DNA of 24,946 nt, taken from IMG/VR virus record IMGVR_UViG_3300023084_001865, positions 1 through 24,946 of that record; one strand, given 5' to 3'. The number at the start of each line of letters is the position of its first letter. Position 1 is the first letter of the stretch. The position numbers and the translations under genes are program-made. The notes beneath the pieces were generated by a model. The model was not told the DNA's origin, did no database searches, and saw only the letters and a list, made by a program, of their open reading frames with translations. This document shows, in pieces, positions 1,455-24,946 of the stretch. The DNA is from a virus.

Positions 1455-1882
1455 TGAACTGGGAGAAACTCAAAACCAATCATTATTTTAAAGATCCCGT
1501 GGAACACATATATGCTTCGATCTTGTACGATATGAAAGAGTATGATAAACTTTATGAAAATCAGAACAACCTAAATCATCACGTTTGGCAGGAGTTTGAT
1601 CAGAAATATAAAACAGGTTTTGAATTTATAAACGACATCGGAGAAATCAATACCAACAAGTCAGTCATATGTGTATGGTTTTTCAAGGACAGGAATGATA
1701 GGAGCAGTGGTGAGGACATAGTGCTAAATGGGAAAAAAATAAAGTATCAGCCAAACACTTTTTTGATAACTCAATCAACAGATATAAAAATTCTAGATAA
1801 AAAAGACAAGTATATCAGAAGACCTTTGCTCCAGCTCGATCTAAAAATAGAAGTGTGGAATCAAATATTAGAAAGATTTTAG
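1454..1882 (+). CDS. Unknown 142-aa protein, possibly a cupin-like fold
   Basis: The start overlaps the previous stop by one base (TAATG). The protein is rich in Lys, Asn, Tyr and Asp. Its second half, from about SVICVWFF through YQPNTFLITQS to LLQLDLK, alternates in a way that suggests beta strands of a double-stranded beta-helix. That could make it a relative of 2-oxoglutarate oxygenase-like or cupin proteins, but I see no HxD metal triad, so this is only a suggestion. Its stop codon overlaps that of the convergent methyltransferase gene at 1879-1882, with no space for a terminator. The gene is visibly more A/T rich than its left neighbour. Confidence 0.55.
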   Translation: MNWEKLKTNHYFKDPVEHIYASILYDMKEYDKLYENQNNLNHHVWQEFDQKYKTGFEFINDIGEINTNKSVICVWFFKDRNDRSSGEDIVLNGKKIKYQPNTFLITQSTDIKILDKKDKYIRRPLLQLDLKIEVWNQILERF

Positions 1883-2484: not shown

Positions 2485-3122
2485 ACTTTATAATAAACTA
2501 TGTCAGGCCACGTCTTGATCAGAATCTTATATCCCAGATCTTTTAGATGTTTTTCTATCTCTAGATTACTACTACCATATCTTTTACTGTTGTTGTTAAG
2601 TTCGATCATAATATATTTGATTTTTTCAAGTTGATGTGATGCACCTTTGAGAACTTCCATCTCTAGACCTTCTACATCTACTTTGAGCAGATCTATGTCT
2701 TGAATATTTAGAGAATCCATTTTTGAGATTTTCGTCTCTCCTTTTTCTAATAAAACTCTTGTATTCTGTGTCGAGGATTCTTGTGATAGAGAGATGTAGC
2801 CGTCCTCATTTCCTATCGCTTGGTTATAAATGCGTATGTGACCGTAGGGTGCTACATTACGTTGGAGACATTCATAATGCGTCTTGTTTGGTTCAAAGCA
2901 GTAGATATTTTTGGCATATTGTTGCATAGTAATAGCCCATGTGCCGCACCAGGCACCTACATCCACTATCATATTAAATTTTTTATTTTGCAACTGACAC
3001 CATTTCTCAAACTGTTTTAAACAAGTGTCCTGCATATGAGGATGACCTTTTTCTCGCCATTTCTCTATCTGTGCATCCGTCGACGGAACCCATAACCCAT
3101 CCTTTAGTTTCTCTATCTTCAT
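2481..3122 (-). CDS. FkbM-family SAM-dependent methyltransferase (first of a tandem pair)
   Basis: The 213-aa protein shows the FkbM pattern more clearly than its neighbour: VDVGAWCGTW (53-62), the acidic strand CFEPNK (75-80) and LLKVDVEGLEMEVLKG (145-160). The N-terminal 45 residues, with paired Cys and Trp residues, are an extension ahead of the fold. It probably methylates a sugar hydroxyl on the glycan made by the surrounding genes. ATG 3120-3122 overlaps the upstream stop (ATGA). The two tandem methyltransferases differ considerably, which favours different positions or sugars over a recent duplication. Confidence 0.82.
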   Translation of the reverse strand: MKIEKLKDGLWVPSTDAQIEKWREKGHPHMQDTCLKQFEKWCQLQNKKFNMIVDVGAWCGTWAITMQQYAKNIYCFEPNKTHYECLQRNVAPYGHIRIYNQAIGNEDGYISLSQESSTQNTRVLLEKGETKISKMDSLNIQDIDLLKVDVEGLEMEVLKGASHQLEKIKYIMIELNNNSKRYGSSNLEIEKHLKDLGYKILIKTWPDIVYYKV

Positions 3123-3931
3123 AATATTCCCTTGTCCATCAATGTTTCTACGGCTGTACCATTCTCAAATTCCTCCGGCGTGAACTGTTGATAGGCCAGA
3201 CTGTATAGCCATGGCTCCGGACCACCATAGTAGGGATTTTCAATATCTGACAACTCGATTCCCGCAACTGCCGTCGCGAAACTCTTCTCATGACAGAATA
3301 CAGGAACACCTTCACAAATGGCCTCTACCGCCGCTATGCTACAACTTGTGACAACGCACCAGGCATCCTTGAGGTCCTCGGATAGGGGTACCTTGGCCTC
3401 GCTTGGTCCTGATGTACCCCTGCCCCTAGGCTTGTGTCGAAGTCGGATGGGTCTGTCTGTGTATCTCTTGATCTGTTCTATCGTGTCATTGGTCCATGTT
3501 GGTTGATCTATGTATGAGTTAATTCCCGCCGAGCTCGGGCACACCAACACGTACTTGCCGGCGAACGATGGCGCTTTTATCTTGATGCCAAACTTCTCAA
3601 ATCTATCAGGCTTACAGTCCTTGATGTATGGAACGTGTATGGAATTCTTACAGATGCGCCAGTAGTGGTTGTCTGGCTTTAGATTGCTGTTGTCAAATCT
3701 TCCAAAGTATGGAGTGTCAGTGAACCAGTACTGATGGTTGCGGGCTTCTAACTTTTTAACCATCTCCCTGTTGTTGCCAACGAATCCCCAGAACATGCTG
3801 TTGCTGACAGGATCATTTTCTTTTGAATTGTCTAATTTGGTTATCTGATCAGGCCATGATTTCTCCACCCCTGCGAACACCTCCCACGCCTTACTGTTCT
3901 TGTTACTGAATGGTGCGTAGATCGTTAGCAT
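3119..3931 (-). CDS. GT-B/KpsC-like glycosyltransferase, paralogue A of four
   Basis: The 270-aa protein shares an ordered set of blocks with three other genes in this window (5706, 6511, 9156). These are a strand ending VLVCPSS (128-134), a TDRPIRLRHKP block (158-168), the signature WCVVTSCSIAAVEAICEGVP (191-210), and a C-terminal DIENPYY...SLAYQQFTPEEFENG block. The signature resembles the donor-site region of capsule-type (KpsC/poly-glycerophosphate) transferases, where a Ser/Glu pair contacts the nucleotide. The likely role is transfer of a sugar or polyol phosphate in surface glycan synthesis. Its start lies 29 bases inside the upstream SGNH gene. Confidence 0.65.
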   Translation of the reverse strand: MLTIYAPFSNKNSKAWEVFAGVEKSWPDQITKLDNSKENDPVSNSMFWGFVGNNREMVKKLEARNHQYWFTDTPYFGRFDNSNLKPDNHYWRICKNSIHVPYIKDCKPDRFEKFGIKIKAPSFAGKYVLVCPSSAGINSYIDQPTWTNDTIEQIKRYTDRPIRLRHKPRGRGTSGPSEAKVPLSEDLKDAWCVVTSCSIAAVEAICEGVPVFCHEKSFATAVAGIELSDIENPYYGGPEPWLYSLAYQQFTPEEFENGTAVETLMDKGIL

Positions 3932-4571
3932 CTATAAAATCCTTTAGTTGTTCTGTCCACAAAATGTGTCCTTCGTACGAAGGATGTGGATCGTTTGGAC
4001 TCACTATGTGTTTGTTCCCTATGATGAAATCATAATGACTGGTGTTAAATTTAAAAAAACGATCTTTGTTGATCGATGATTCCACTGTTCGTAGATCCTT
4101 GTTGAGTGAAGTCATTGAGTTAGGCAGACTGTTGTACATCACGTAAGGTATGCTTTTTAACTCAAAGAAATTTTGTAGATCTAAAACATGGTCAAGGAAT
4201 CTCATCTCGCCCTGTTGATCCACGTCCCATCCAGGTTGTCCAGAAATGAATCTTAGGTTGTCTGCCGTTTTCCATGTTCTCCATGTGGAATCCATGTTGA
4301 CTATTCGGCCCTTCTTCCACCCGTCGTTGGTCATGTAGTCATGTCTGTGTGTGCTAGACCAACCTATCACTGCGAATACATCTTTTGTACTGTTCTGTTG
4401 GAACCATAACTTCGTCGTGAAACTGATACGGTCATTGCCCCTGCCACCCATGGCGAGATTACACAACTCCATTTTGTATTGTTCTGCTAAAATTTTGGTC
4501 GTGAATGTGTCTACCCCGTCTTTTGGCCGGGACACAAGGAAACTGCATCCATTGGAAAATAATCGCATCAT
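3903..4571 (-). CDS. SGNH/GDSL-type hydrolase
   Basis: I place the start at the double ATG 4571/4568, which begins MMRLFSNGCSFLV. A longer in-frame start at 4793 would run through the divergent gene at 4599. The 222-aa protein has block I with the likely Ser nucleophile (NGCSF, S10), block II NLAMGGRGND with Gly 43 and Asn 46, block III VIGWSS (68-73) and a C-terminal DPHPSYEGH with D194 and H196. That is the SGNH catalytic layout. Such enzymes deacetylate or acylate sugars. As first gene of the minus arm, it most likely edits acyl groups on the local glycan. Confidence 0.75.
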   Translation of the reverse strand: MMRLFSNGCSFLVSRPKDGVDTFTTKILAEQYKMELCNLAMGGRGNDRISFTTKLWFQQNSTKDVFAVIGWSSTHRHDYMTNDGWKKGRIVNMDSTWRTWKTADNLRFISGQPGWDVDQQGEMRFLDHVLDLQNFFELKSIPYVMYNSLPNSMTSLNKDLRTVESSINKDRFFKFNTSHYDFIIGNKHIVSPNDPHPSYEGHILWTEQLKDFIDANDLRTIQ

Positions 4572-4598
4572 AGTGTATTTTACAGTATAATTATTCGT
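4572..4598. promoter_or_regulatory. Short divergent A/T-rich gap, probable promoter region
   Basis: Only 27 bases separate the minus-strand SGNH start from the plus-strand GT61 start, so divergent promoters must lie here or inside the genes. The stretch contains TATAATTA at 4586-4593, which resembles both a sigma70 -10 box and a degenerate T4 late octamer. No -35 box is convincing. Neither start has a clear Shine-Dalgarno sequence. Confidence 0.3.
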
Positions 4599-5681
4599 AT
4601 GCCAACGGTTAAGAATATCGATTCTTTGAAATATTTCCTCAATCGATTTCCCACAATCGACAGTGGGTATGAATACTCGGTCAATTACCATGAGAACGTG
4701 GATCCAAACTTCAAATCGTTGCCCACTTTCATGGCAGAATTCTTTGACTGTAAAGTACACAGTTGCCCGCTGTTGTTGACCAATGAGGATCATTTAATAA
4801 CCAATCACGTATGGAACCTCACGCACAAGAGCAGAAACAAACCAGGTAAAACTCATGGTCTATGGAAGGAATGGGGGGACCATGTGGAGATCGACCTACC
4901 TCCCGTGGCCAGGCAGTTCAACGAGACCTACACCTACGTGTGGTTGCCCATAGACGAGGACAGCGCCAACAACCCATGGCACATATGGATGGACGTGATA
5001 TCCAAGTTCCGACTGATCGAGAAGAGGTGGTCCACCAACTTCGCCAAGTACGTGTTTGTGCTTTCGAACCCCAGCAATTATTTTGACAGGGTGGCAAAGG
5101 AGTTCTTCTCAGAAATGAAGTACATGGTGATGCCAAAGAACGAGACCTGGCAGTTCAAACACCTAATCGTCCCCAGCCTCAGCAATCACAACGACGGAGT
5201 GACCACACCACATCTGGCACCGTGGCTCAGGGTGATGAAGAACATACTGAAGGTCGGATCCGATAGGAAGAGAAAGATCTTTGTGTCACGTGAGGACGCC
5301 AAGACCAGGAAGCTGGTAAACGCTGAAAAATTATTGATAGCTCTCAAAGGATGGGAGACCGTGACCTTAGAAAATTTATCAATCAAAGAACAGGTTAGAT
5401 GTTTCTCTGAAGCATCTCACGTGGTGTCAACACACGGTGCGGGACTGACCAACCTGCTCTGGTGTGAGCCTGGGACGAAGGTCATCGAGATACAGGACCC
5501 GAACATGATAAAAAAGAAGGTGTATCCCGTGTTGTCTTACCAACTGGGACTTGATCACGAGCTGTACCTCGCAAAGACCATACCCATAAAGACACAGGGA
5601 GAAAAACCAAAAGGTGTGAAGAGATTCAACGATCTCATCAATTTTGAAGTGGATGTGGCCGATTTGATTAGACATCTGTAA
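4599..5681 (+). CDS. GT61-family (DUF563-like) glycosyltransferase
   Basis: The 360-aa protein has the features of the GT61 family. These are NNPWHIWMDVISKF in the middle (124-137), IFVSREDAKTRKLVN (227-241) with the conserved Arg of the RxD/N segment, then LSIKEQVRCFSEASHVVSTHG (260-280), AGLTNLLW (281-288) and PGTKVIEI (291-298). GT61 enzymes transfer pentoses or hexosamines from nucleotide sugars. Nothing here tells which. It heads the plus-strand arm of the island. The central part (4840-5320) is noticeably richer in G and C than the genes that follow, a hint of separate origin. Confidence 0.8.
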   Translation: MPTVKNIDSLKYFLNRFPTIDSGYEYSVNYHENVDPNFKSLPTFMAEFFDCKVHSCPLLLTNEDHLITNHVWNLTHKSRNKPGKTHGLWKEWGDHVEIDLPPVARQFNETYTYVWLPIDEDSANNPWHIWMDVISKFRLIEKRWSTNFAKYVFVLSNPSNYFDRVAKEFFSEMKYMVMPKNETWQFKHLIVPSLSNHNDGVTTPHLAPWLRVMKNILKVGSDRKRKIFVSREDAKTRKLVNAEKLLIALKGWETVTLENLSIKEQVRCFSEASHVVSTHGAGLTNLLWCEPGTKVIEIQDPNMIKKKVYPVLSYQLGLDHELYLAKTIPIKTQGEKPKGVKRFNDLINFEVDVADLIRHL

Positions 5682-5705
5682 GGGAATATTATATAATACA
5701 GAGTC

Positions 5706-6521
5706 ATGATTTATCTAAGTCAAACACACAGAGAGGTTACAGAGAAATACATCAGATTCGCTAACCAAGGTATACCAGGTTCAAAGATTTTACCTTACAA
5801 AGATATTCTAAACATTAAAGAAGCAGAGGGAATCTGGTTGTTTGGCATACTACGTGGCACAGATCTGGTGTACAAACATTGTGAGAAAAATAAAATAAAT
5901 TTCTATTATATGGATAGACCTTATTGGGGATTGTCTAGAGAACATCCTTATTTTTTGAGAATAGTCAAAAACGGACATGTTAAAAACACCATCGAAGATA
6001 GGCCCGATGACAGATTCAAAAGCACATTCCCACACGAGATAATGCCCTATCATAAAAACGGAAAAAAAGTGTTAGTGTGTCCACCCACGAACGCAATCTG
6101 TGATTTCTTTAATTGTAGGGATTGGTTAGACAATACATTAAAAATATTGAAGGAGAACACCGATCGTGAGATAATTGTACGAGAGAAACCTTACAACCCA
6201 GAAACATACAAAGACGAGAACGGAACTCTACGCACAGGCGAGAACACATCACAGCAGTCAAAAGAAAAAATCGACTGGCGTGAAATACATGCCGTGGTCA
6301 CGTACAACAGTTCTATAACGATAAAAGCATTGTCCAGTGGTGTTCCGGTGTTCACAGACAGCAATAATTGTGCTTTCCCTATCGCAGGAAAAAACTTCGC
6401 AGACATAGAAAATCCAGAATATCATGACCCCAGACCTTTGTTCCACAGTCTTGCATATGGACAATTCAACAAAGAAGAAATGAGAAATGGCTACGCATGG
6501 AGTAAGTTGAATGGACGTTGA
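5706..6521 (+). CDS. GT-B/KpsC-like glycosyltransferase, paralogue B
   Basis: The 271-aa protein aligns by eye with paralogue A along its whole length: YYMDRPYWG (67-75) matches YWFTDTPYFG, then KVLVCPPTN (121-129), NTDREIIVREKP (151-162), HAVVTYNSSITIKALSSGVP (195-214) and DIENPEY...SLAYGQFNKEEMRNG. It is the closest relative of A, encoded on the opposite strand 2.6 kb away. It presumably performs a similar transfer with another donor or acceptor. A TATAAT-like box lies at 5692-5697, 8 bases before the ATG, without a recognisable -35. The next gene starts 11 bases before this one ends. Confidence 0.65.
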   Translation: MIYLSQTHREVTEKYIRFANQGIPGSKILPYKDILNIKEAEGIWLFGILRGTDLVYKHCEKNKINFYYMDRPYWGLSREHPYFLRIVKNGHVKNTIEDRPDDRFKSTFPHEIMPYHKNGKKVLVCPPTNAICDFFNCRDWLDNTLKILKENTDREIIVREKPYNPETYKDENGTLRTGENTSQQSKEKIDWREIHAVVTYNSSITIKALSSGVPVFTDSNNCAFPIAGKNFADIENPEYHDPRPLFHSLAYGQFNKEEMRNGYAWSKLNGR

Positions 6522-7494
6522 AATATTTAGAAGGACCGTGAAGGATCGTAAGCGTGGTGCAAGTTGGCAGTTGCTTCAGCACATGGCGGAAGGAATAAAG
6601 GCATGCGGTGATAACCCTATCGTAGTAAACGAACACAAGGAAGGTCCATGGACGGACAACGAAATGGAACCAACTGCTCCAATAGGTTGCATGTTTGGTT
6701 ATGGCGGGAAGAATCAACCACATCACACCAAAGGACGTAGGAGAGATCTAGTCGAACGTGCAAAGAAAAAAGGCATTTACATAATCACATTCGATGGAGG
6801 AATATTATCTAGTTTTGGAAATACTATTACACATCCTAAACACCACTGGCGTGTCAGCCTTTATTCACCCATGAATAACGGAGATTTCTTGAGTGACAAC
6901 AGTCCTGACGACAGATGGAACATGATGATGGACCTATGGAATATAAAACACGAGCCATGGCGCAAGTCAAATCAAAATGATCCTATTCTGTTTGGCTTAC
7001 AGCCAAAAGACAACTGGAGCATGGACGAGCTTGATCCTATTGAGTGGTTCAACAATGTGTATGAAAAAATAAGACCTGCTACTGATCGTAGATTCCTAAT
7101 ACGTCCACACCCCAATCACATGGCACAGATGATAAAAAGGAAAAACGAGTTCCCCGAAGACTGCGAATTGTTGGAAGGCCCTACACACTTCGTGGGCGAT
7201 GAGAAAAAGTACTACAGATTCAACTTCCAGGAGGCATTGAGTAACTGTCATGCTTTTGTTACTCATAATTCTACGGCCAGTGTTGACTCCTGTGTTCGTG
7301 GAATCCCCACCTTTGTTACCTCAGATCTTGCACTCTGTTGGCCAGTGGCAAACAAAGACCTAAACAAAATAGAAACACCCGAGTATCCGGATAGAACACA
7401 ATGGGTACATGATATAGGTTACAAGATGTGGAGTACGGACGAGATAAGAAGCGGTATTGTTTTTAAAAGATTCAAAGAGAAGTTAGGACTATGA
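6511..7494 (+). CDS. GT-B/KpsC-like glycosyltransferase, paralogue C (longest)
   Basis: The 327-aa protein has both halves of a GT-B fold. The N-terminal part contains a Gly-rich MFGYGGKNQPHH turn (61-72). The C-terminal part carries the family blocks PILFGLQP (158-165), RRFLIRPHPNH (193-203), HAFVTHNSTASVDSCVRGIP (247-266) and IETPEYPDRTQWVHDIGYKMW. The RPHP motif and the HNS segment are typical of capsule and polyol-phosphate transferases. Compared with A and B it is more distant, and nearer to paralogue D. The ATG overlaps the end of the previous gene, and its TGA overlaps the sulfotransferase ATG. Confidence 0.65.
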   Translation: MDVEIFRRTVKDRKRGASWQLLQHMAEGIKACGDNPIVVNEHKEGPWTDNEMEPTAPIGCMFGYGGKNQPHHTKGRRRDLVERAKKKGIYIITFDGGILSSFGNTITHPKHHWRVSLYSPMNNGDFLSDNSPDDRWNMMMDLWNIKHEPWRKSNQNDPILFGLQPKDNWSMDELDPIEWFNNVYEKIRPATDRRFLIRPHPNHMAQMIKRKNEFPEDCELLEGPTHFVGDEKKYYRFNFQEALSNCHAFVTHNSTASVDSCVRGIPTFVTSDLALCWPVANKDLNKIETPEYPDRTQWVHDIGYKMWSTDEIRSGIVFKRFKEKLGL

Positions 7495-8267
7495 TACACA
7501 GAAGAGTCAATGTACTACAAAACCAGTATGATACTATACCAAATCTTATCCTAAGTTTTCCACGTTGTGGTCGTACTTGGATGAAGCACTTATTTGGTCA
7601 TTATATCGCCAAGAAGTACAATGTAGAATTTAGTAAATGGGTGGATAGGCCAAGATCGGGAATACCTAGAATATTGTTCAGACATGACTGGATGAGTACA
7701 ACAGGGCATATACCATGGCAAGAATATTTTCAGATACAAGATAAATGTAGATTCATATTCAGTAAAGAAATGACAAAACAAAACATAATATATCTTTTCA
7801 GAGATCCCCTCGATGTGTTGTTCAGTTATTGGCCATACCTACAGAGTATACCTTACAAGAACTTTACTCCACCGGAACATACCGATATAATCGATTTCGC
7901 ACACAACAAACAATGGGGTTTTGATATTGTAATTAATTTTATGAACGCACAGTTGGATCATTATGAACAACATCAAAATAAAAAATTAAAAGTGAGGTAT
8001 GAAGATCTCAAAAAACAAGATTCGGAATGGCAAAAATTAATAGAATTCATATTTGGTCATTACGACTATCAAGCGTATGAACATGCCAAGTCCCAGACAA
8101 CATTCTCAAAAATGCAAGAGAAAAACAACAAAGATCTTCCCGATAATCTGAAGTTCTATAGAAAAGGGGGATCAAATTACATAAAAGAATTGTCAGCGGA
8201 ACAACAGGACATTTTATTAAACTGGCCCGGCTACAAGGATTTAAATAGACGCATACATGAAGATTAA
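7491..8267 (+). CDS. PAPS-dependent sulfotransferase
   Basis: The 258-aa protein has all three sulfotransferase signatures. The 5'-phosphosulfate loop is LSFPRCGRTW (21-30). The 3'-phosphate site is YLFRDPLDVLFSYW (101-114), with Arg 104 and Ser 112 as expected. The C-terminal substrate/PAPS block is YRKGGSNY (223-230), a variant of the usual RKGxxGDW. Length is normal for a soluble Sulfotransfer_1 enzyme. It would move sulfate from PAPS to a hydroxyl, most plausibly of a sugar given its position inside a glycosyltransferase run. PAPS must come from the host. ATGA overlap at the start indicates coupled translation. Confidence 0.87.
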   Translation: MIHRRVNVLQNQYDTIPNLILSFPRCGRTWMKHLFGHYIAKKYNVEFSKWVDRPRSGIPRILFRHDWMSTTGHIPWQEYFQIQDKCRFIFSKEMTKQNIIYLFRDPLDVLFSYWPYLQSIPYKNFTPPEHTDIIDFAHNKQWGFDIVINFMNAQLDHYEQHQNKKLKVRYEDLKKQDSEWQKLIEFIFGHYDYQAYEHAKSQTTFSKMQEKNNKDLPDNLKFYRKGGSNYIKELSAEQQDILLNWPGYKDLNRRIHED

Positions 8268-9159
8268 GGTAATCACATCATACAAACCTGGCTGTTGGGA
8301 ACAGTACGGCAAGAAGGGCATTGAGTCAATGGCCGAACAGTTTCCGCCAGAAGTGGACATAGTTGTGTATGCTGAAGAACCAAAGCCTGACTGTAAATAC
8401 GGTCGTATCCAATGGATAGACCTCAACACGGCCGAGCCAGAACTTTTTAAATTCAAGAACAAACACAAAGATGATCCGGTCGCTAACGGAGAACTCCAAG
8501 AGATACCGGGTGGTGTGAGAAGACCCGCCGAATTACAAACCAAGGGCGGTGCCGACAAGAATAAAGGATCATTCCTATGGGCGGCTGTGAGATTCGCCAA
8601 CAAAGTTTTCTGTGTGGTCAATGCTGTAAGGAACTCGAAGGACTATGACTACGTGGTGTGGATAGACGGTGACACTTTCACTTTCAGGTCCGTGCCGATG
8701 GATTTCTTTGAGAAACTACTGCCTAAGGAGACCATGTTGACCTATCTTGGTAGGGAGAATCCAAACCTACACGATGGTGGCAAGTATCCCGAATGCGGTT
8801 TCGTGGGATATAACATGCGACACCCTGAAATACAGAATTTCGTAAACGATTGGGAAAAACTCTATATAACAGATGATGTCTTCAAACTCCTGGAGTGGCA
8901 CGACAGTTACGTGTTCTGGCACCTGTCAAAGATTTATAGGAAAGAAAGAGGCATAACAGTCAATGATATAGGATACTGGAAAGGGGTCAAAGGTCATCAT
9001 GTGTTCGTCAACAGTGAACTGGGACTTTACATGGATCACCTCAAAGGAAAAAGGAAGAAGTTAGGCACATCCGCCAAAAATGATTTACGTGTCAACTCCA
9101 ATACTTCTACAGACATCAGGTCCATCGATTACTGGAAGAAAGCGCCGCCCACGATATGA
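8257..9159 (+). CDS. Glycosyltransferase-like protein with DxD motif
   Basis: The 300-aa protein opens with a beta strand KIKVITSYKPGCW and has YVVWIDGDTF with D137 and D139, the metal and nucleotide-sugar site of GT-A enzymes. This is followed by ECGFVGYNMRHPEIQNF and a conserved-looking HDSYVFWHL segment. A Gly/Lys-rich insertion lies at 75-105. This layout fits a single-domain retaining transferase related to the gene at 777 but not close to it. It starts 11 bases inside the sulfotransferase gene and its TGA overlaps the next ATG, so it is part of the same transcription unit. Confidence 0.7.
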   Translation: MKIKVITSYKPGCWEQYGKKGIESMAEQFPPEVDIVVYAEEPKPDCKYGRIQWIDLNTAEPELFKFKNKHKDDPVANGELQEIPGGVRRPAELQTKGGADKNKGSFLWAAVRFANKVFCVVNAVRNSKDYDYVVWIDGDTFTFRSVPMDFFEKLLPKETMLTYLGRENPNLHDGGKYPECGFVGYNMRHPEIQNFVNDWEKLYITDDVFKLLEWHDSYVFWHLSKIYRKERGITVNDIGYWKGVKGHHVFVNSELGLYMDHLKGKRKKLGTSAKNDLRVNSNTSTDIRSIDYWKKAPPTI

Positions 9160-10028
9160 GACTAGAAGTTTGGACAGAATACGGGCCATTGAATTCAAAA
9201 CCCATCTTTGATGCTTTCATAAAAAGTTTGGAAGATGCTGGTGAGACTGTATATCTAAACAAGTCTGCCAACGCTGACGTGGCCGTGATATGGAGTGTGT
9301 TATGGCGAGGCAGGATGGAACAGTATCAGAAGATCTGGAGAGAATATAGGGGCAGTGGTCGACCGGTCATAGTCATAGAAGTCGGGGGACTGAGAAGGAA
9401 CCAAAGTTTTAAAATTGGCATCAACGGTATCAACAGAGATGCTGATTTCGCCAATCAAGAGTATGACGACAAGAGATGGCCACTCTTCAAACACGAGCTA
9501 CAGCCTTGGAACCCTACAGGTGATATCATTGTGATATGTGGACAACACGATGCTTCTGAACAATGGAAGGGACTTCCTAGAATGGAAAATTGGATTGTTC
9601 AACAAATCACAGAAATAAGGAAGTATACAACGAGACCAATATTGGTCAGGCCACATCCTAGGAATCAGATATCATTTGATCCCGGTAAATTTGACAATGT
9701 CAAAATCAGAATGCCCAAAAGAGATTACAGGACATACGATGATACAGATTTCAAAAAAACTTTAAAAAGGACATGGGCCGTGGTCAATCACAGTTCCAAC
9801 CCGGCCATGGAGGCGGTCATAAAAGGTATTCCTGTTTTCGTTTCTGAATCCAGTTTGTGTCATGATGTGGGTAACATCAAACTTATTGACATCAACACAC
9901 CTGCCATGCCTAACAGAATCAATTGGGCAAATCAATTGGCATACACCGAATGGTTCAAGGACGAGATAGAGGCGGGCTTGCCATGGGGGAGAATCAAAAA
10001 AAGACTCGAAGAGAAATATATCAAATGA
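9156..10028 (+). CDS. GT-B/KpsC-like glycosyltransferase, paralogue D
   Basis: The 290-aa protein has family blocks IIVICGQHD (124-132), RPILVRPHPRNQ (160-171), WAVVNHSSNPAMEAVIKGIP (207-226) and IDINTPAMPNRINWANQLAY near the end. The N-terminal half has VIVIEVGGLRRNQ (71-83), a second Rossmann-like edge. It most resembles paralogue C in the RPHP and HNS-type motifs. A role in adding sugar or polyol phosphate to a glycan is inferred from the family pattern and from its neighbours. ATGA overlaps join it to genes on both sides. Confidence 0.65.
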   Translation: MRLEVWTEYGPLNSKPIFDAFIKSLEDAGETVYLNKSANADVAVIWSVLWRGRMEQYQKIWREYRGSGRPVIVIEVGGLRRNQSFKIGINGINRDADFANQEYDDKRWPLFKHELQPWNPTGDIIVICGQHDASEQWKGLPRMENWIVQQITEIRKYTTRPILVRPHPRNQISFDPGKFDNVKIRMPKRDYRTYDDTDFKKTLKRTWAVVNHSSNPAMEAVIKGIPVFVSESSLCHDVGNIKLIDINTPAMPNRINWANQLAYTEWFKDEIEAGLPWGRIKKRLEEKYIK

Positions 10029-10792
10029 AAGTAATAAACATAGGACAGAGGAATGTCATAGAACCTATAGAATGGAAACCATACACCGGCGAAACTATTA
10101 TTGTAAAGACAATACTGCGACAAGGCAAGAAGATACAAGAGACTGCCTACTACGAAGACAAAGTTAAAGCAGTGCCACGTGGTAATGCCTATTGTATAGG
10201 AAATGGACCTTCCAGAAAAGGATTTGATCTGAACAAACTGAAGTCAACAGGGCAAACTTATGGCTGTAATGCTTTGTATAGAGATTTCATACCAGACTTC
10301 ATATTTTCGGTCGATACAAAGATTACCGTGAAGATGTGCGAAGACGAAGTGGGGCTAAAGACTGTTCACTATGCACCATCATTGGAAGTGAATAGGAAAC
10401 AGAACAAGGGCATGTTACATCTGATTCCCTATAATCCTCACTGGATTTCAGGTAACGCCGCATTCTGGACAGCGGGAATACATGGACACAAAAATATATA
10501 TCTGCTAGGGTATGACTTCCGAGAGTACGGCGCGGGGCAGTTGAATAACATCTACCAAGACACCGAGTGTTATGGTGAGAGGAATAACGATGCTATCTTT
10601 GAGGGGTGGTTAAAAACTTTCAGGGACATGTTGAAGATGAGACCATATGTGAATTACACATTGGTGCATGATAATCCCCCAAGTTTCCTACATAATCTAC
10701 AGACAGGAACGGACATGGGCAACAGTAGAATAATCAGTTATAAGGAATTTAACGATACAGTCTTAAACCAGCACTCTCAAACTTCTGTCTAA
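10025..10792 (+). CDS. GNGPS-motif Rossmann-like protein (DUF115- or sialyltransferase-like)
   Basis: I use the ATG at 10025 (ATGA overlap, protein starting MKVINIGQRN). A start at 9923 would lie deep inside the previous gene. The 255-aa protein has AYCIGNGPSRKGFDL (55-69), then TYGCNALYRDFIPDFIFSVD (78-97) and later YLLGYDFREYG. GNGPS followed by a CN-containing strand and a PD...VD strand occurs both in DUF115/MptE-like proteins and in Campylobacter-type CstII sialyltransferases, where the first motif binds the nucleotide. It is the last gene of the plus arm. Its 3' end overlaps the convergent SprT-like gene by 44 bases. Confidence 0.6.
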   Translation: MKVINIGQRNVIEPIEWKPYTGETIIVKTILRQGKKIQETAYYEDKVKAVPRGNAYCIGNGPSRKGFDLNKLKSTGQTYGCNALYRDFIPDFIFSVDTKITVKMCEDEVGLKTVHYAPSLEVNRKQNKGMLHLIPYNPHWISGNAAFWTAGIHGHKNIYLLGYDFREYGAGQLNNIYQDTECYGERNNDAIFEGWLKTFRDMLKMRPYVNYTLVHDNPPSFLHNLQTGTDMGNSRIISYKEFNDTVLNQHSQTSV

Positions 10793-15877: not shown

Positions 15878-16103
15878 GATAGATCTAGAGATTACCGACA
15901 ACTTGAGCTTCGAGGACGGAGACTGTGCTGTGATAATAAAAGAGGATGGATCTATAGGAAGGGTTATAATGCCCGACATGAACAGGAAGATATTGGAATC
16001 AGAAGGATACAAGAAACTGTTGGATGTGCTAGAGGTTCTGGAACCGGGTTCACGTGACAAGATGATAGATCATGCCAAACAAGGCAAAGGGAGTATGCAT
16101 TAA
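15870..16103 (+). CDS. Unknown 77-aa acidic protein, TTG start
   Basis: The gene starts at TTG under a near-perfect AAGGAGG site. The protein reads MSKIDLEITDNLSFEDGDCA, then VIIKEDGSIGRVIMPDMN, and ends in a helical EGYKKLLDVLEVLEPGS stretch. The beta-hairpin-like middle and amphipathic C-terminal helix suggest a small folded adaptor. I see no known motif. Its stop shares a base with the start of the DNA polymerase III alpha-like gene (TAATG), so the two are translationally linked, which is the best clue to its role. Confidence 0.65.
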   Translation: MSKIDLEITDNLSFEDGDCAVIIKEDGSIGRVIMPDMNRKILESEGYKKLLDVLEVLEPGSRDKMIDHAKQGKGSMH

Positions 16104-16693
16104 TGCCTGATGTAGATATAGATTTCTTTGACAGGGACGGAGTCCTCAAGTTATTCAAACACACACCAGCATCCATGATCAAAGATGGTAAATCAGAGAA
16201 GCACAAGACTGGAGTGTATTTTCATGCGATACCCGAACACCCAGTGACCGGACATTCTACCCTTGACTACAAGAAAGCCGAGGATAGAGGCTACTTCAAG
16301 ATAGACATGTTGAATGTCAACATATACAAGGAAGTAAAATCAGAACAGGAACTGGTAGAACTGATGATACAGGAACCGGATTGGGATATGCTGAAAGACC
16401 CAAAGATAGTCGAAAACCTTTTCCACCTGAACGGTCATTTCAATATCGTGTCCAAACTGGAACCCAGGAACATAGAACAACTGGCGGCAGTGCTGGCCAT
16501 TATACGTCCGGCCAAGCGACAGTTGATGTACAAGGACTGGCTTGACATCATGAAGGAAGTCTGGGTACGACCCACAGATGGATCATACTTCTTCAAGAAA
16601 TCACACGCAATAGCATACGCACAGGCAATTGTTGTACAGATGAATCTGATCACACGTGCTAAATATAGTTTTGATGCTACATCAAAAACCTAA
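16103..16693 (+). CDS. Miniature DNA polymerase III alpha (DnaE)-like protein
   Basis: The 196-aa protein has the sequence blocks of the bacterial C-family polymerase palm and fingers in the right order but greatly shortened. PDVDIDF (2-8, D5 and D7) matches PDFDVDF with its two catalytic aspartates. TGVYFHAIP...PVT...AEDRGYFKID (36-68, D68) matches the segment ending in VKFD with the third catalytic aspartate. LFHLNGHFNIVSKLEP then IEQLAAVLAIIRPA (107-137) matches the block ending ALVALFRPG, and KKSHAIAYA (165-173) matches NKSHSAAYA. PHP, beta-binding and OB domains are absent. Known DnaE proteins are about 1,100 residues. Whether it polymerises, regulates or decoys is unknown. Confidence 0.72.
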   Translation: MPDVDIDFFDRDGVLKLFKHTPASMIKDGKSEKHKTGVYFHAIPEHPVTGHSTLDYKKAEDRGYFKIDMLNVNIYKEVKSEQELVELMIQEPDWDMLKDPKIVENLFHLNGHFNIVSKLEPRNIEQLAAVLAIIRPAKRQLMYKDWLDIMKEVWVRPTDGSYFFKKSHAIAYAQAIVVQMNLITRAKYSFDATSKT

Positions 16694-19063: not shown

Positions 19064-19967
19064 TTTCCATATAGAACCTACCAGTAAATGCACTCTGGAG
19101 TGTCCGTTGTGCTCAAGGACTTGGTTCTATGAAAAATATAAAAAAAGATCCTTACACGAAGTTGATGTGGATAATCTCACTAGGTTTGTTGGCAAGAATA
19201 AAAAACTTTCACTATGTGGCAACCATGGTGACCCGATATACCATTCAAAATTCATTGAGCTCTGTAGGAAACTCAAAGACAATAACTGCGAGTTAAGAAT
19301 TATAACAAACGGTTCCTCCAAAACAAAAAAATGGTGGCAAGAACTTAATTCGGTTCTTGAAGAGAACGACACAATCGTTTTCTCCATAGACGGCTTGGAA
19401 GATACTAATCACATATACAGGATCAATGCCAAATGGAAATCTATCATGGATGCTATCCAAGTATTACAAACACGCAAGTGTAAAATTCAATGGAAGTTCA
19501 TTGTTTTCAAACACAACCAACATCAAATCAAAGATGCGGAAGCATTGTCAAAAAAGATAGGATTTGATCAGTTTAACGTGGAACACAGCGATAGGTGGTT
19601 GGGCAAAAAGGACCTAATGCCAGACAAGGAGTTCGTTGACGAAGGGTACAAACAGTCAGAGGAGATTCTTACAAACCCAAACTTTACCACAACAATGTCA
19701 CCAAGATGTTTAAGAGATGGCATGCCTGGTAATAGTTTGTACATAGATGCCGAAGGTGATTTCTATCCTTGTTGCTGGATGGCAAGTTATCATTACAAAT
19801 ATAAAAGTATTTTCTCCCCAAAGGTAAAAAGATCGTTCAATATCAAAGACAACACGATAGAAGATATCCTAGAATGGGCTGAGGTAAAAGAGTTCTTTGA
19901 TTCAACAAAACAATTTACATCTGCCCACGAATGTTGTAAAATAAAGTGCGGAGTAAAAAATGGCTGA
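19056..19967 (+). CDS. Radical SAM enzyme with C-terminal SPASM-like cysteines
   Basis: The start is a GTG at 19056 preceded by AAAAGGAA. The next ATG would remove the cluster motif. The 303-aa protein has the radical SAM signature C12-x3-C16-x2-C19 (KCTLECPLCS), then LCGNHGDP as the SAM-contact loop, and ITNGSS. The end has Cys 239 and 240 (YPCCW) and Cys 293, 294 and 298 (ECCKIKCG), fitting an auxiliary SPASM or twitch-type cluster. Such enzymes modify peptides, sugars or cofactors. It overlaps primase and helicase genes by 8 bases on each side, an insertion into a replication unit. Substrate unknown. Confidence 0.87.
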   Translation: MIDFHIEPTSKCTLECPLCSRTWFYEKYKKRSLHEVDVDNLTRFVGKNKKLSLCGNHGDPIYHSKFIELCRKLKDNNCELRIITNGSSKTKKWWQELNSVLEENDTIVFSIDGLEDTNHIYRINAKWKSIMDAIQVLQTRKCKIQWKFIVFKHNQHQIKDAEALSKKIGFDQFNVEHSDRWLGKKDLMPDKEFVDEGYKQSEEILTNPNFTTTMSPRCLRDGMPGNSLYIDAEGDFYPCCWMASYHYKYKSIFSPKVKRSFNIKDNTIEDILEWAEVKEFFDSTKQFTSAHECCKIKCGVKNG

Positions 19968-21399
19968 ATATACGTTCGACGTACAGAAACTTTATATAGA
20001 GATGTTATTGGCGGATGCGGAATCGTTCGCAAGAGCACAGAACATATTCAAACCGGAATCGTTTGATCGTAAACTACAGCCTATTGCCAAATTCATCAAG
20101 GACTACATGGACGAATACAAGGTCATGCCGGACGTGGAACAGGTCAACGCCAAACACGATGTAAAACTTAAATCGGCCAAGGATCTAGATCCAAGTCACT
20201 TCAATTGGTTGCTGGACGAGTTTGAAACTTTTTCGAGACACAAGGCACTGGAACATGCCATACTACAATCAGCGGACCTGCTGGAGAAGGGCGATTACGC
20301 CCCCGTGGAAGACATGGTCAAGGAAGCGGTCAGCGTGGGACTCACACGTGACCTAGGCACGGACTACTTCGAGGATCCTAAAGGAAGGCTAACTGCCCTC
20401 AAGGACAACAACGGTCAGATCAGCACGGGCTGGGCCAACCTCGACAAGAAACTGTTTGGTGGATTCAACAGAGGAGAACTAAACATCTTTGCAGGTGGAT
20501 CAGGTGCGGGTAAGAGTTTGTTCCTACAGAATCTCGCGGTGAACTGGGCCACTGCTGGTCTGAACGTGTGTTACATATCTTTTGAATTGAGTGAGCAACT
20601 GACGGCCATGAGGTTGGATGCCATGATGACCAACATACCCACACGTAAGGTGTTCCCGGAGATAGACAACGTGGAGATGAAAGTCAAGATGATGGCTAAG
20701 AAATCTGGAATACTACAGATCAAATACCTGCCAAGTGGTAGCAACGTGTTAGACGTAAGAACGTATCTCAAAGAACTTGAACTGAAAACCAAGAAGAAGA
20801 TAGATTGTATACTGATAGATTATCTAGATCTCATGATGCCGAAGAGCAAGAAGATATCCCCCGCAGACTTGTTCATCAAGGACAAGTATGTGTCTGAAGA
20901 ACTTAGGAACTTGGTCGTAGAGAAACAGTGTGTGTTGGCGACGGCATCACAATTGAACAGGGCTTCAGTGGAAGAGATAGAGTTTGATCACAGTCACATT
21001 TCAGGTGGACTGTCCAAGATACAGACAGCAGACAACGTGATAGGGATATTCACAAGTAGAGCCATGAAAGAGCGTGGCAGATATCAGATACAATTCATGA
21101 AGACAAGATCAAGTTCGGGTGTGGGACAGAAAGTTGACTTGGAGTTTGACGTGGACAGTTTACGTATCAGAAGCCTGGACGAGGATGAGTCACAGAGCTA
21201 CAATCAACAGGGCAAGAACAAGATATACGATTCATTGAAACAGACCTCCAAAGTCACAGGCGGTACCGACACAGATGCTAGATCCGAGATTCCCGATCCA
21301 AGAAAAGGCGATAACTTAGGTATTAAAGTCAAAGCCACAGTTGAAGGTGGCAAACTGAGACAACTGCTCAACGATCTACACTCCGACGAGGAGCAATGA
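19960..21399 (+). CDS. 41: Replicative DNA helicase, T4 gp41-like (DnaB family)
   Basis: The 479-aa protein (T4 gp41 is 475) has an N-terminal helical domain (1-130) and a RecA-type core. The core contains STGWANLDKKLFGGFNRGEL (155-174), Walker A GGSGAGKS (179-186), ISFELSEQ, Walker B CILIDYLDLM (283-292), TASQLNRAS and ISGGLSKIQTADNV, all DnaB motifs in order. It forms a hexamer on the lagging strand, unwinds the fork 5'-3' and recruits the gp61 primase. The C-terminal 60 residues are acidic and variable. The ATG overlaps the radical SAM stop. After it comes a 105-base spacer with a late-type promoter. Confidence 0.93.
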   Translation: MAEYTFDVQKLYIEMLLADAESFARAQNIFKPESFDRKLQPIAKFIKDYMDEYKVMPDVEQVNAKHDVKLKSAKDLDPSHFNWLLDEFETFSRHKALEHAILQSADLLEKGDYAPVEDMVKEAVSVGLTRDLGTDYFEDPKGRLTALKDNNGQISTGWANLDKKLFGGFNRGELNIFAGGSGAGKSLFLQNLAVNWATAGLNVCYISFELSEQLTAMRLDAMMTNIPTRKVFPEIDNVEMKVKMMAKKSGILQIKYLPSGSNVLDVRTYLKELELKTKKKIDCILIDYLDLMMPKSKKISPADLFIKDKYVSEELRNLVVEKQCVLATASQLNRASVEEIEFDHSHISGGLSKIQTADNVIGIFTSRAMKERGRYQIQFMKTRSSSGVGQKVDLEFDVDSLRIRSLDEDESQSYNQQGKNKIYDSLKQTSKVTGGTDTDARSEIPDPRKGDNLGIKVKATVEGGKLRQLLNDLHSDEEQ

Positions 21400-21504: not shown

Positions 21505-22437
21505 ATGAGTATAAAAGTAAACTGGTTAATAGCTCACAAACCTGTGAATCTATTCATCAGAACAGCCGAAGCATTCAAAAAAGCGATTGCCGAGGCGACC
21601 GATGGAAAATACGAAATCGTAATCCATGAAAAAGAATCAGAAGAACATTTTATTGCCGAAACAGGGAAAACAACTGTTAAAGCACTAGCCGACAATGACT
21701 TCCAAATGAGTCAGACTGAAGTCTACCAAATTGGCAAGATGCACGAAGGAACAAGAGACTTCTTGGCCCTTGACTTACCTTTCTTGTTTGAGTCACACGA
21801 TCATTGTTCAGCAGTGATGGAAGGACCGATCGGTGAAGAGTTGAACAATAAACTACACAAGCACCTAAACGTAAAAGGTTTAGCATACACTTATTCAGGT
21901 GGATACAGAAACTTTGGTTCAAACAAAGAATTAAAGAACCTGTCTGACCTGGCAAATGCCAACAGCGTTAGGGTTGGTGGTAATCCGGTGTGCCAAGACT
22001 ACATCAAGGAACTTGGTGTTGACATCAACAGACAATCGATCCAATCAGCCGAACATTGGTTGAAGATAGATGAGATCGAAGCGGACTCTGTGGAAAACAC
22101 TTACACAAGATTCCCAGAAGCCAAATATTGGTTGAACACAAATCATAACATGTTCATCACGGATATCATGACTTCAGACGCATTCTGGAACACACTAGAT
22201 AACGATACCAAAGATATCTTCAAACAGACTGCGGTGAAAGTTGCGAGACTTGAAAGGAAATGGTCAGAAGAGGACCACGACGCTTTCGAGGCTTCGGCAG
22301 AAGTACATGGTAAAACCATAACTCCAATTTCAGAAGAGGACAAGGCTTTGATGAGAGAAAAAGCCGCTCCTGTCTACGAAAAATGGAGCAAGGAGTTATC
22401 TCCTAACTTGGTAGCAAATATCAAGAAATACAATTAG
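21505..22437 (+). CDS. TRAP-transporter DctP-type substrate-binding protein, no signal peptide
   Basis: The 310-aa protein has the TRAP periplasmic-binding layout: FKKAIAEATDGKYEIVIH (24-41), FLALDLPFLFESHDHC (86-101), a GGYRNFGSN strand (132-140), and SVRVGGNP (154-161) with the ligand-binding Arg at about 156. It ends with the long C-terminal helices (WNTLDNDTKDIFKQ; AAPVYEKWSKELSP). Bacterial relatives bind organic acids or similar solutes for the DctQM membrane subunits. Unlike them it starts MSIKVNWLIAH directly at the first strand, with no export signal. DctQ and DctM are not nearby. A Shine-Dalgarno and late-type octamer suggest late expression. Confidence 0.85.
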   Translation: MSIKVNWLIAHKPVNLFIRTAEAFKKAIAEATDGKYEIVIHEKESEEHFIAETGKTTVKALADNDFQMSQTEVYQIGKMHEGTRDFLALDLPFLFESHDHCSAVMEGPIGEELNNKLHKHLNVKGLAYTYSGGYRNFGSNKELKNLSDLANANSVRVGGNPVCQDYIKELGVDINRQSIQSAEHWLKIDEIEADSVENTYTRFPEAKYWLNTNHNMFITDIMTSDAFWNTLDNDTKDIFKQTAVKVARLERKWSEEDHDAFEASAEVHGKTITPISEEDKALMREKAAPVYEKWSKELSPNLVANIKKYN

Positions 22438-22465: not shown

Positions 22466-23062
22466 ATGAAATTATCCGAGTATTTGAGCTGGTTAGATTC
22501 TGAGGAGTTTGACTACTACGCAGACACAGTAAAGTTCGCAGACCTTCAGCAGGAAGGATTCAAATTTTTAAAAAAAGTAAAGTTACCCCCATTACAATTC
22601 ATAAAAGAAATTACCACACAACCCAGGGCCGACGGCAAGGACCTAGAGAACGTGTACACCTACGGTCGACATCCATCACTGGACGAATGGGCGGAAAAAA
22701 ACTTTCCGGAACTGAAGTACAAACAAACACTAGTTCAACTACAGAAACCCGGAGACAAAGTGGATCCTCACGTGGACACACTACATGGACAAATAAGGAA
22801 ATGGATAGAACACGAACCAGAGTTAGCAAACATCGAACACTCCATGGAAAATCCCAATCCTAATTTCAAAGCAAGAAGATATTTTATAGGAGTCGAAGAC
22901 CGCGTTGATGGACAAGATTTTATCATAAACAATGTCAAATGGATTTGGGAGGAGGGAGATGTCATCTCTCTAAATGTGTGGAGAGCCACTCACAACACAA
23001 AAAATAACAGCAACAAGGATAGATACATAATCAAAATAACAGGACTAGAATCATGGACATAG
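22466..23062 (+). CDS. 2-oxoglutarate/Fe(II)-dependent oxygenase
   Basis: The 198-aa protein has the metal triad of this superfamily: H102 and D104 in VDPHVDT (HxD), and distal H176 in WRATHNTK. Arg 186 lies ten residues later and is placed to bind 2-oxoglutarate. Strands RRYFIGVED, DFIINNVKWIWEEGDVISLN and RYIIKITG form the double-stranded beta-helix. It resembles the prolyl/aspartyl hydroxylase-like oxygenases that are frequent in marine T4-like phages. The substrate (protein, nucleic acid or small molecule) cannot be read. Its stop lies inside the next gene's start region (10-base overlap), so the two are coupled. Confidence 0.82.
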   Translation: MKLSEYLSWLDSEEFDYYADTVKFADLQQEGFKFLKKVKLPPLQFIKEITTQPRADGKDLENVYTYGRHPSLDEWAEKNFPELKYKQTLVQLQKPGDKVDPHVDTLHGQIRKWIEHEPELANIEHSMENPNPNFKARRYFIGVEDRVDGQDFIINNVKWIWEEGDVISLNVWRATHNTKNNSNKDRYIIKITGLESWT

Positions 23063-23688
23063 AAAATATATGGCAACAATTCACCAAAAGACAGTTCGAG
23101 TACCTCAGTGATATTGTATCACATTCTAATGCCAAAACTGTTTGTGAAATAGGAGTATTTTGTGGTAGCGTTGCTAGAGCGATTTGGAAAGGAATGGAGA
23201 ACAGCGACAAAGAACTATATCTAATAGACAACTATTCGTTTCTACCAGAAAAGTTTAGAAAACCTTTTTTCAAAATGATAAAAAAAACTATTAGTAGCAA
23301 TGATAGAATACACACCCTGCTCGAAGATAGTCACAAATACGATTGGACGAAACACGATTTTATTATATTTTCACATGCCGATTATGATCATATGAAAAAT
23401 GATTTTGATAAATTGTTAACCGTCAATGTGAAGACAGTTGCTCTCGACATACCGTTTGGGTGTTTCAAAAGGACAACAACAATACTGGAAGCATTAAAGG
23501 ACAAGAAACTTAGACCACAATATTACATCGACGGCATGTTAATATGCGGACAGATGACACATTGTTCTCTTCCTACAGAGGAAGGTACATTGTTTGGAAA
23601 TCCAATACGATATGTGAAAAAGAAAAAAGGGTCTTATCAAACAGCAATAGATAAGATAGTAGGAAATCTAAAAGGCACTAAAGCGTAA
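23053..23688 (+). CDS. Class I SAM-dependent methyltransferase-like protein
   Basis: The 211-aa protein has a Rossmann motif I variant CEIGVFCGSVAR (31-42), an acidic end of strand 2 ELYLIDNYSF (54-63), a DS pair near residue 93, and FIIFSHADYDHMKNDF where class I methyltransferases of the Methyltransf_24 kind have their motif IV. It is not close to the two FkbM enzymes of the glycan island. The gene is A/T rich like the preceding oxygenase, and the two probably travel together. Product and substrate are unknown. Confidence 0.7.
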   Translation: MDIENIWQQFTKRQFEYLSDIVSHSNAKTVCEIGVFCGSVARAIWKGMENSDKELYLIDNYSFLPEKFRKPFFKMIKKTISSNDRIHTLLEDSHKYDWTKHDFIIFSHADYDHMKNDFDKLLTVNVKTVALDIPFGCFKRTTTILEALKDKKLRPQYYIDGMLICGQMTHCSLPTEEGTLFGNPIRYVKKKKGSYQTAIDKIVGNLKGTKA

Positions 23689-23743
23689 ATTACCAAAGAT
23701 AGCGTAAAAAAGAAAATAACGCGAACGCGTTAAAAAGCGTAAA
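23682..23743 (+). repeat. Three direct copies of AGCGTAAA
   Basis: The octamer AGCGTAAA occurs at 23682-23689, 23701-23708 and 23736-23743, with centres 19 and 35 bases apart. The first copy contains the methyltransferase stop codon and the last two flank the terminator hairpin. They could be a protein-binding site set or remnants of small duplications at an insertion boundary. Confidence 0.5.
23705..23732 (-). terminator. Rho-independent terminator of the porin gene
   Basis: On the minus strand TAACGCG and CGCGTTA (23717-23732) form a perfect 7-bp inverted repeat, a stem of 6-7 pairs with a 2-4 base loop. It is followed by a U-rich run read from 23716 down to 23705. On the plus strand the hairpin is followed by AAAAA, so it works best for the minus-strand porin gene ending at 23791. 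The 23744-23790 stretch between them holds nothing else I recognise. Confidence 0.75.
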
Positions 23744-23790: not shown

Positions 23791-24729
23791 TTAGAACGTG
23801 AACTTGATTCCAACCGCGGCATCCTGCGTGTCTACGCCAGACGCTGGGTCAGTCATCTCGAAAGCACCGTACATGCTGAAGTTCTCACCAATCTTCTTCT
23901 CGGCTCCAACTGTGGTGTATGCGGCACCGTCCTCAACTTTACCGTATCCGATCGAGTATGTCGTGTCATCCACTAGGTGTGATGCCACTACCTCGTTTGC
24001 GGTTGTGGTAAGGTTGGTGGTTTCCGCGTCCTTGATTGTGTGCGTGTAGCCCACTGTTGTCGCATCTGACACAGCGTATGAAACACCAGCACCTGTGTAC
24101 TTAACAGAGTTCACTTTGTCATCTGTGTAGGCAATACCTAAATTTAGGTTATCACTCACATCCACAGACGCCGCTGTCTCGTAAACGTCCACACCAGACT
24201 TTCCGGTTGTTCCGTCCACTTTGATCAAGTTGTCCAACTGTATCGCACCAAAAGTGTTAGAGTAGACCACTGTGTGTGAGTCCCTGCTGAACAGTTTCTG
24301 TGCGGCACCGTTTCCATATTCCGGGAACACATCTGTCTTAGATGTTACTGCGCCCTTGAACACCGAGTTCTGTCTACCCGCTGATATGATTCCAGCGGTG
24401 CCCATGTCCACACCGGCGAAGGCCAGTTTGGAATCGAATGGGTTGGAACCCGAGTCATCCGCGTCGATGTCCACCTCAAGGGTAGCGAATCCGTTCACGC
24501 CCTCTGCGATGTCCTGCGAGAAGTTTGCTCCGATCGAGGAACCATTGTTCTCGGCCTTTGATGTTGAAACGCCATTGGCGTCCTCGTTGTTGGAAAGCAT
24601 GTAGTTCAGTGAACCGTACACTTCCATGTTAGCCGCTTCTGCTGGCTTGGGCTTCATTATGAAACCTATCACTATCAGTGCGATGATGATCGCCGCACCT
24701 ATAGCCGTCTTCTTCTTTGTTATTTTCAT
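23791..24729 (-). CDS. Phage-encoded Gram-negative porin with signal peptide
   Basis: I take the ATG at 24729 (MKITKKKTAIG), which has GGAG about 11 bases upstream. An in-frame start at 24807 would bury the signal peptide. The 312-aa precursor has a basic N-region, a hydrophobic core (9-24) and a PAEA^A signal peptidase site near residue 33. The mature start is NMEVYGSLNYML, typical of general porins. Alternating beta strands with a VDxDAD-type turn, FAGVDMGTAGIISAGRQNS and a terminal FTF follow; the final Phe is the outer-membrane assembly signal. It would form a trimeric outer-membrane channel. It has its own late-type promoter and terminator and looks complete. Confidence 0.87.
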   Translation of the reverse strand: MKITKKKTAIGAAIIIALIVIGFIMKPKPAEAANMEVYGSLNYMLSNNEDANGVSTSKAENNGSSIGANFSQDIAEGVNGFATLEVDIDADDSGSNPFDSKLAFAGVDMGTAGIISAGRQNSVFKGAVTSKTDVFPEYGNGAAQKLFSRDSHTVVYSNTFGAIQLDNLIKVDGTTGKSGVDVYETAASVDVSDNLNLGIAYTDDKVNSVKYTGAGVSYAVSDATTVGYTHTIKDAETTNLTTTANEVVASHLVDDTTYSIGYGKVEDGAAYTTVGAEKKIGENFSMYGAFEMTDPASGVDTQDAAVGIKFTF

Positions 24730-24740
24730 TATAGATTTTT

Positions 24741-24760
24741 CTCCTATATAGTTTCTATAT
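24741..24760 (-). promoter_or_regulatory. Porin ribosome-binding site with adjacent hairpin
   Basis: On the minus strand a perfect ATATAG-AAA-CTATAT inverted repeat (24746-24760) is followed at once by GGAG (24741-24744). ATATAGGAG is also the ribosome-binding context of the TRAP-type gene (about 21487-21495). The hairpin ends just before the GGAG and could affect its accessibility. Confidence 0.4.
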
Positions 24761-24800
24761 GACTTGTTTTTACTAATGCGAACACCAACACATGTCAGTG

Positions 24801-24835
24801 AGAGCATTTGCGATCACTGGCCTTGTGACCGCTCT
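24801..24835 (-). other. Hairpin-forming element in the porin leader
   Basis: GCGATCAC (24810-24817) and GTGACCGC (24825-24832) pair with one mismatch around a 7-base loop, and AGAGC (24801-24805) can pair with GCTCT (24831-24835). The two pairings share bases at 24831-24832, so they compete. The element would lie in the 5' leader of a porin mRNA started from 24849-24856. Regulatory function is only a suggestion. Confidence 0.3.
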
Positions 24836-24848
24836 GGATTGTAAGGCA

Positions 24849-24856
24849 TATTTATC
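24849..24856 (-). promoter_or_regulatory. Late-type promoter octamer for the porin (GATAAATA, 7 of 8)
   Basis: On the minus strand this reads GATAAATA, one mismatch from TATAAATA. Transcription would start near 24843 and give a leader of about 114 bases, unusually long for this phage, containing the hairpin element at 24801-24835. Confidence 0.5.
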
Positions 24857-24942
24857 AAAAAAGCAACACTTAATAGTTGCGTTTGGTAAACTTTTTCCAT
24901 GCGCTTGACGTCGAATAATTACAACGAACAGGAGGCGGAATC

Positions 24943-24946
24943 ATGG
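24943..24946 (+). CDS. First codon of a following gene (3' partial)
   Basis: AGGAGG at 24930-24935 lies 7 bases before an ATG at 24943, four bases from the window edge. The good ribosome-binding site makes a gene start here likely. Nothing can be said of its product. The preceding 24857-24929 stretch shows TTGACG at 24905 but no matching -10 box. Confidence 0.45.

Follow-up and report, generated by a model that had tools for sequence, protein, structure and literature searches.

The window (the 24,946-nt stretch formed by positions 1 to 24,946 of IMG/VR record IMGVR_UViG_3300023084_001865) carries an intact porin gene of phage ancestry behind a conserved and covarying 5′ leader, and in some sister phages the body encoded behind this leader has been exchanged for an unrelated short protein. 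We think it probable, without regarding it as settled, that the locus is a moron-like expression and export cassette through which the infected cell would acquire a channel (or other β protein) in its outer membrane. As in morons, the gene has its own promoter and terminator, and its occurrence is sporadic, with porin, the short protein, or neither being present in sister phages. The preliminary description had proposed a phage-encoded, exported porin, and sequence comparison supports that proposal. Feature coordinates are given in Table 1.

Table 1 Features of the porin locus and its landmarks. Coordinates are those of the window, except for the short exported protein family, for which they are those of the loci named.
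Feature	Coordinates	Strand	Remarks
Porin CDS	23791..24729	minus	Open complete ORF, 312 aa; predicted general-porin (OmpC/OmpF/OmpU/Omp32-like) barrel
Predicted signal peptide, residues 1-32	24634..24729	minus	KITKKK..., AEA cleavage motif; from sequence
Loop-3/constriction segment, residues 119-151	24277..24375	minus	R119, D133, E137, R149 (TDVFPEYG); HMM alignment to OmpK36 loop 3 VTSWTDVLPEFGG
Shine-Dalgarno AGGAG	24741..24745	minus	From sequence; precedes most relatives too
Sigma70-like promoter TTGCTT-17-TACAAT	24838..24866	minus	Conserved in 34 leaders
T4-late-type octamer GATAAATA	24856-24849	minus	Inside promoter spacer, ~120 nt upstream of ATG
5′ leader hairpin GCGGTCAC-aaggcca-GTGATCGC	24810..24832	minus	8/8 pairs kept in 34/34 sequences
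Second leader hairpin GCTCTCACTGACATGTGTTGGTGTTCGC	24778..24805	minus	Some relatives only: folded in window, L002, L005-L007, L022, L025, L026
Intrinsic terminator downstream of porin	23717..23732	minus	TAACGCGTTCGCGTTA then TTTTCTTTTTT at 23732-23717 and below
gp41/DnaB-type replicative helicase	19960..21399	plus	Fixed landmark beside porin island
Start (ATG G...) of divergent neighbor	24943..24946	plus	AGGAGG-spaced ATG at window edge
Short exported protein family, ~90 aa mature	L290 5001-5366, L296 5001-5366, L304 5001-5369, others		Behind porin leader

The gene was found to be open and complete, as had been claimed, and lies on the minus strand, on which the preliminary description was silent. 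The window porin matched Pfam Porin_1 (PF00267; E = 2.1e-8, 34.4 bits against a curated cut-off of 23.7), and 11 of 14 records of its relatives also exceeded this cut-off; PHROGs, PADLOC, and NCBIfam contained no family for it. The signal peptide (n-region KKK, a hydrophobic stretch, and AEA ending at A32), the AEA site, and the C-terminal Phe (F312) were all present as described and conserved in the relatives, with A32 invariant across 22 phage porins. The YGSLNY motif was also present and conserved (residues 38–43), but the mature protein begins near A33, a few residues before it, and the motif is not the mature start that it had been taken for. The AF2 model of the porin (21 sequences; pLDDT 76.8, falling below 50 at the loop-3 tip) had ~16 strands and matched the solved general porins OmpT, Omp32, OmpU, PorB, and OmpK36 with VIA Z of 24–26 over ~260–270 residues; the predicted fold is the 16-strand outer-membrane barrel of PF00267.

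Loop 3 of the porin reads VTSKTDVFPEYG and was aligned by HMM with its counterpart in OmpK36. In this alignment, D133 and E137 correspond to the acidic residues of OmpK36 loop 3, and R119 and R149 correspond to its basic cluster; R119, D133, and R149 were invariant in the porin family and E137 was nearly so. An arginine equivalent to R37 of the OmpK36 basic eyelet cluster is not kept in the window porin. Judged from the alignment, the acidic loop 3 of a general-porin constriction appears to be present and the basic cluster that it faces appears to be present only in part. The protein resembles OmpC, OmpF, and OmpK36 (PF00267) in its modeled 16-strand barrel, in the loop-3 motif TD.xPE(F/Y)G with its acidic residues, and in its C-terminal Phe, which belongs to a GxxFxF-type signal, but it shares only 14–20% identity with the solved porins, has a mature chain of only ~280 aa with very short surface loops, and falls in a phage-specific clade.

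The porin family is under purifying selection (overall dN/dS ~0.19), which is strongest at loop 3 (0.09, the lowest value of any part; strands, 0.16; loops, 0.22). Hypervariable extracellular loops were not seen when dN/dS was compared by part, the loops of the family being short and conserved. The strongest constraint at the pore constriction, together with the lack of hypervariable loops, points to conductance, and the selection pattern agrees more with a functional channel than with a surface antigen undergoing diversification. A channel is the best-supported reading for the porin, as far as can be judged from its sequence and that of its relatives.

Upstream of the gene, the main group of relatives shares the arrangement TTGCWT-N17-TACAAT, with NATAAATA in the spacer and a hairpin where the transcript is expected to begin, and TACAATCC was invariant in the 34 leaders. 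The window contained two matches to TTGC-N19-TACAAT (0.09 expected); the second match (10100-10128, minus strand) falls within a gene and was disregarded. By plain consensus score, the window promoter reached 8/12, no better than shuffles. Sister loci L015, L016, L018, and L019 carry TTGACA-18-TATAAT without a mismatch, and the hairpin behind it is unrelated in sequence; the promoter of L015 and L018 matched 12/12 consensus positions, a score reached by 0 of 400 shuffles. Expression is probably driven by a host-type polymerase.

The preliminary description had assigned late-type control signals to the gene. The octamer is indeed present, but the most conserved elements are sigma70-like, the octamer lies in their spacer, and taken alone it is at chance level (ATAAATA was found 3 times in the window, with 4.6 expected in shuffles). 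It has weight solely because it is conserved in relatives of the main group, the window count of this T4-type late promoter being that of chance; it is absent from sister groups L014, L033, L034, and L053. A late promoter as the main control is weakened by the chance-level count and by this absence, and the porin gene may be expressed early, or at both early and late times. The minus-strand terminator of the preliminary description proved real and recurs 56–61 nt past the stop codon in most main-group loci (where scored). A further terminator-like hairpin, GCAAC-GTTGC with T6 (24863-24880, minus strand), overlaps the −35 box and could shield the porin promoter from transcription arriving from upstream.

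The first leader hairpin showed covariation, with changes on both sides at five pairs, which 0 of 500 shuffles reached. The leader element occurred no more than once per contig in 15 records, and a scan of the whole of IMG/VR recovered it on 30 contigs, 25 with porin and 5 with the short protein, as assigned to porin or short-protein loci by contig name; across that collection, the hairpin was found nowhere but ahead of this slot. An Rfam gathering scan of the window returned nothing. In some relatives, the hairpin could alternatively be a DNA palindrome (operator), but the G-U wobble pairs and the hairpin of unrelated sequence in the sister loci favor RNA.

From these elements, we propose that host RNA polymerase would start a single-gene mRNA at the dedicated promoter, with the phage late polymerase perhaps adding a boost via the octamer in the spacer. 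The stable hairpin at the mRNA start may protect the message, which would have a strong ribosome site and end at its own terminator. Sec would export the porin and BAM would fold it via the C-terminal signal; the resulting general-diffusion channel would have 16 strands, very short surface loops, and a constriction like that of OmpC. Its presence would then alter the outer membrane of the infected cell, most likely by keeping a solute channel open under phage control while infection proceeds, and this may benefit the phage. The protective role of the hairpin is suggested by analogy with the ompA-type 5′ UTR stabilizer, also a 5′-terminal stem-loop before an outer-membrane protein gene; the porin leader is unrelated to it in sequence, and its stabilizing role is putative. 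Work on the stable ompA mRNA and its 5′ UTR is cited in PMC7509114.

When the helicase, and not the porin, was used as the anchor (80 loci), some sister phages proved to share the leader and the 33-residue signal peptide, but behind these lay a different protein of ~90 residues. The mature part of this short protein had no detectable relationship to the porin (hhalign probability 1.2%), and this profile comparison did not support its derivation from the porin by deletion. Its AF2 model was β-rich, with 6 strands (pLDDT 66.5), and had no significant match in the PDB; no match to the protein was found in cultured phages, PADLOC, or NCBIfam. Like the porin, it ends in a GxxFxF-type signal. Among the 11 helicase-anchored contigs that reached the right-hand landmarks, 4 had porin (two of them near copies), 3 had the short protein, and 4 had neither. 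When whole short-protein records, including a sister contig of 196.6 kb, were searched with the porin profile, only the signal peptide at the slot was matched. The tree of leader plus signal peptide, in which three rows were shorter than the rest, contained three label changes between porin and short protein (bootstrap 3–4), and its well-supported branches force only one. Repeated swapping of the body behind the leader is likely on this evidence, and the promoter, hairpin, and signal peptide would form a platform that carries the ~90-residue β-rich protein in the sisters.

That the slot also accommodates a 90-aa protein is hard to reconcile with solute diffusion alone. It is possible, though we hold it to be clearly less probable than the cassette proposed above, that the slot serves superinfection exclusion or surface remodeling: the added porin or short β protein would displace or mask the host receptor porin, and the short loops would give competitors nothing to bind. 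Lambdoid phages encode outer-membrane proteins, the porins Lc of PA-2 and NmpC among them, that may alter receptor use, and the window porin may be compared with these and with Cor; the phages are different, and the window porin family alternates with a nonhomologous short protein behind one leader. The alternation of two unrelated exported β proteins, the sisters with neither, the FkbM methyltransferases and other surface-type genes of the adjoining cargo, and the precedent of the small phage protein Cor, which acts on outer-membrane receptors (PMC9311878), are all consistent with exclusion, but the loops are not hypervariable, the constraint is greatest at the pore constriction, and PADLOC gave no match.

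Genes for FkbM-type methyltransferases and other transferase-like proteins, with repeated paralogues (cluster c12, 4 copies in the window), extend in a long series over 1879-10028 and look like a surface-modification island. Nearer to the porin, a TRAP-type DctP gene (21505-22434) travels with 22466-23062 and 23053-23688 as a cassette that was found near porin in six viral members. A nutrient-uptake role in which the porin is an auxiliary metabolic gene paired with this solute-binding protein is improbable. In the window, ~1.35 kb separates DctP (PF03480, E = 1.2e-38) from the porin, DctP and porin also lie near each other in L005-L007, L041, and L049, and on marine viral contigs a porin, OmpL, that has a promoter and terminator has been reported beside amtB and glnK (PMC8115048). 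However, most porin loci are without the DctP cassette, and the phage DctPs begin at the binding domain and would stay cytoplasmic; the pair was rejected because the signal peptide was missing from all six members (0/6). Viral OmpL resembles the window porin in being a porin on such contigs with its own promoter and terminator, but it is said to be Bacteroidetes-derived, forms part of a nitrogen-uptake set, and has another family context (PMC8115048). Tripartite tricarboxylate transporter-like genes, one secreted and TctC-like and one membrane and TctA-like, were noted by eye where a sister phage has this cargo island (L259 17320-19539).

The window carries a gp61-type primase, a gp41-type helicase, and a UvsW-type helicase. 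The best matches of its gp41 and UvsW (48–54%) were to jumbo phages of the PA5oct group, Atu_ph07, and Phosso, and by these genes the lineage is related to Atu_ph07, Phosso, and PA5oct; an origin from pelagimyophages (HTVC008M group) was rejected, since these core genes are nearest to the jumbo phages and not to HTVC008M. Pieces of DNA polymerase III alpha are present in relatives, and this gene has been reported in Atu_ph07 and most Rak2-like phages (PMC6102473). It is seemingly split: many relatives have an N-terminal/NTPase part (563 aa; L056 3606-5297) next to gp41, and the window has, at 16103-16693, a possible finger-domain piece (weak Pfam match).

Relatives of the porin were found on 56 viral contigs (48–94% identical), and the gp41-type helicase adjoins the porin in most of them. 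The usual layout is gp41-type helicase, variable cargo, porin (in either orientation), and a divergent radical SAM gene; the divergent neighbor at 24943 in the window is presumably the same radical SAM protein. The synteny comparison called for in the preliminary description showed the gp41-cargo-porin arrangement in dozens of independent contigs. The comparison with bacteria that it had also suggested, by identity and phylogeny, revealed no near-identical bacterial gene. Neither of the two refuting conditions named in the preliminary description was thus borne out. A close bacterial homologue was sought in ~930 genomes and only distant porins were found: 1 weak match in 385 genomes of the class, 2 in 147 of the SAR11 family, and 22 in 398 of the phylum (best E = 6e-17). 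When genome contigs were scanned with the porin alignment, no relative was confirmed, and no bacterial donor was named. In the tree, all phage porins, including that of the cultured Pelagibacter phage HTVC008M, formed one clade (support 100/96) apart from the nearest bacterial porins. A recent host gene capture or an assembly chimera at ~23.7 kb, to which the slightly higher G+C of the porin relative to its flank and the strand switch at the boundary might point, is extremely improbable and was rejected, because the same junctions are shared by dozens of contigs that come from separate samples, the bacterial matches are distant, and the clade is phage-only. By these comparisons, the porin is a resident phage gene and not a contaminant.

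Among annotated phage records, a relative of the porin was found only in HTVC008M, whose "outer membrane porin" (AGE60376.1) belongs to the same clade, is 40% identical over 91% of the query, and is intact with a signal peptide. It differs in belonging to a Kyanoviridae lineage, in lying beside baseplate genes, in its short signal peptide, and in having no such covarying hairpin leader. Phage-encoded porins were thus already known from HTVC008M, from viral OmpL (PMC8115048), and from OmpC-like entries among the BFVD viral proteins; they were unmentioned in the jumbo-phage literature searched. The new elements are the porin family across the lineage, its covarying leader, and the fact that the exported body behind that leader has been exchanged.

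We give about even chances to a more specific proposal, namely that this marine, jumbo-phage-related lineage maintains an interchangeable leader platform only for outer-membrane β proteins, that recombination at the signal-peptide junction swaps the porin for the ~90-residue protein and so remodels the surface of the infected cell, and that the hairpin is a new phage mRNA element. If this is true, large marine phages would actively manage the outer membrane of the cells that they infect, where phage porins have so far been known one by one. The leader, its two alternative bodies, and the natural empty sites would together offer a testable system for whether the porins of lytic phages feed the cell or shut out rivals.
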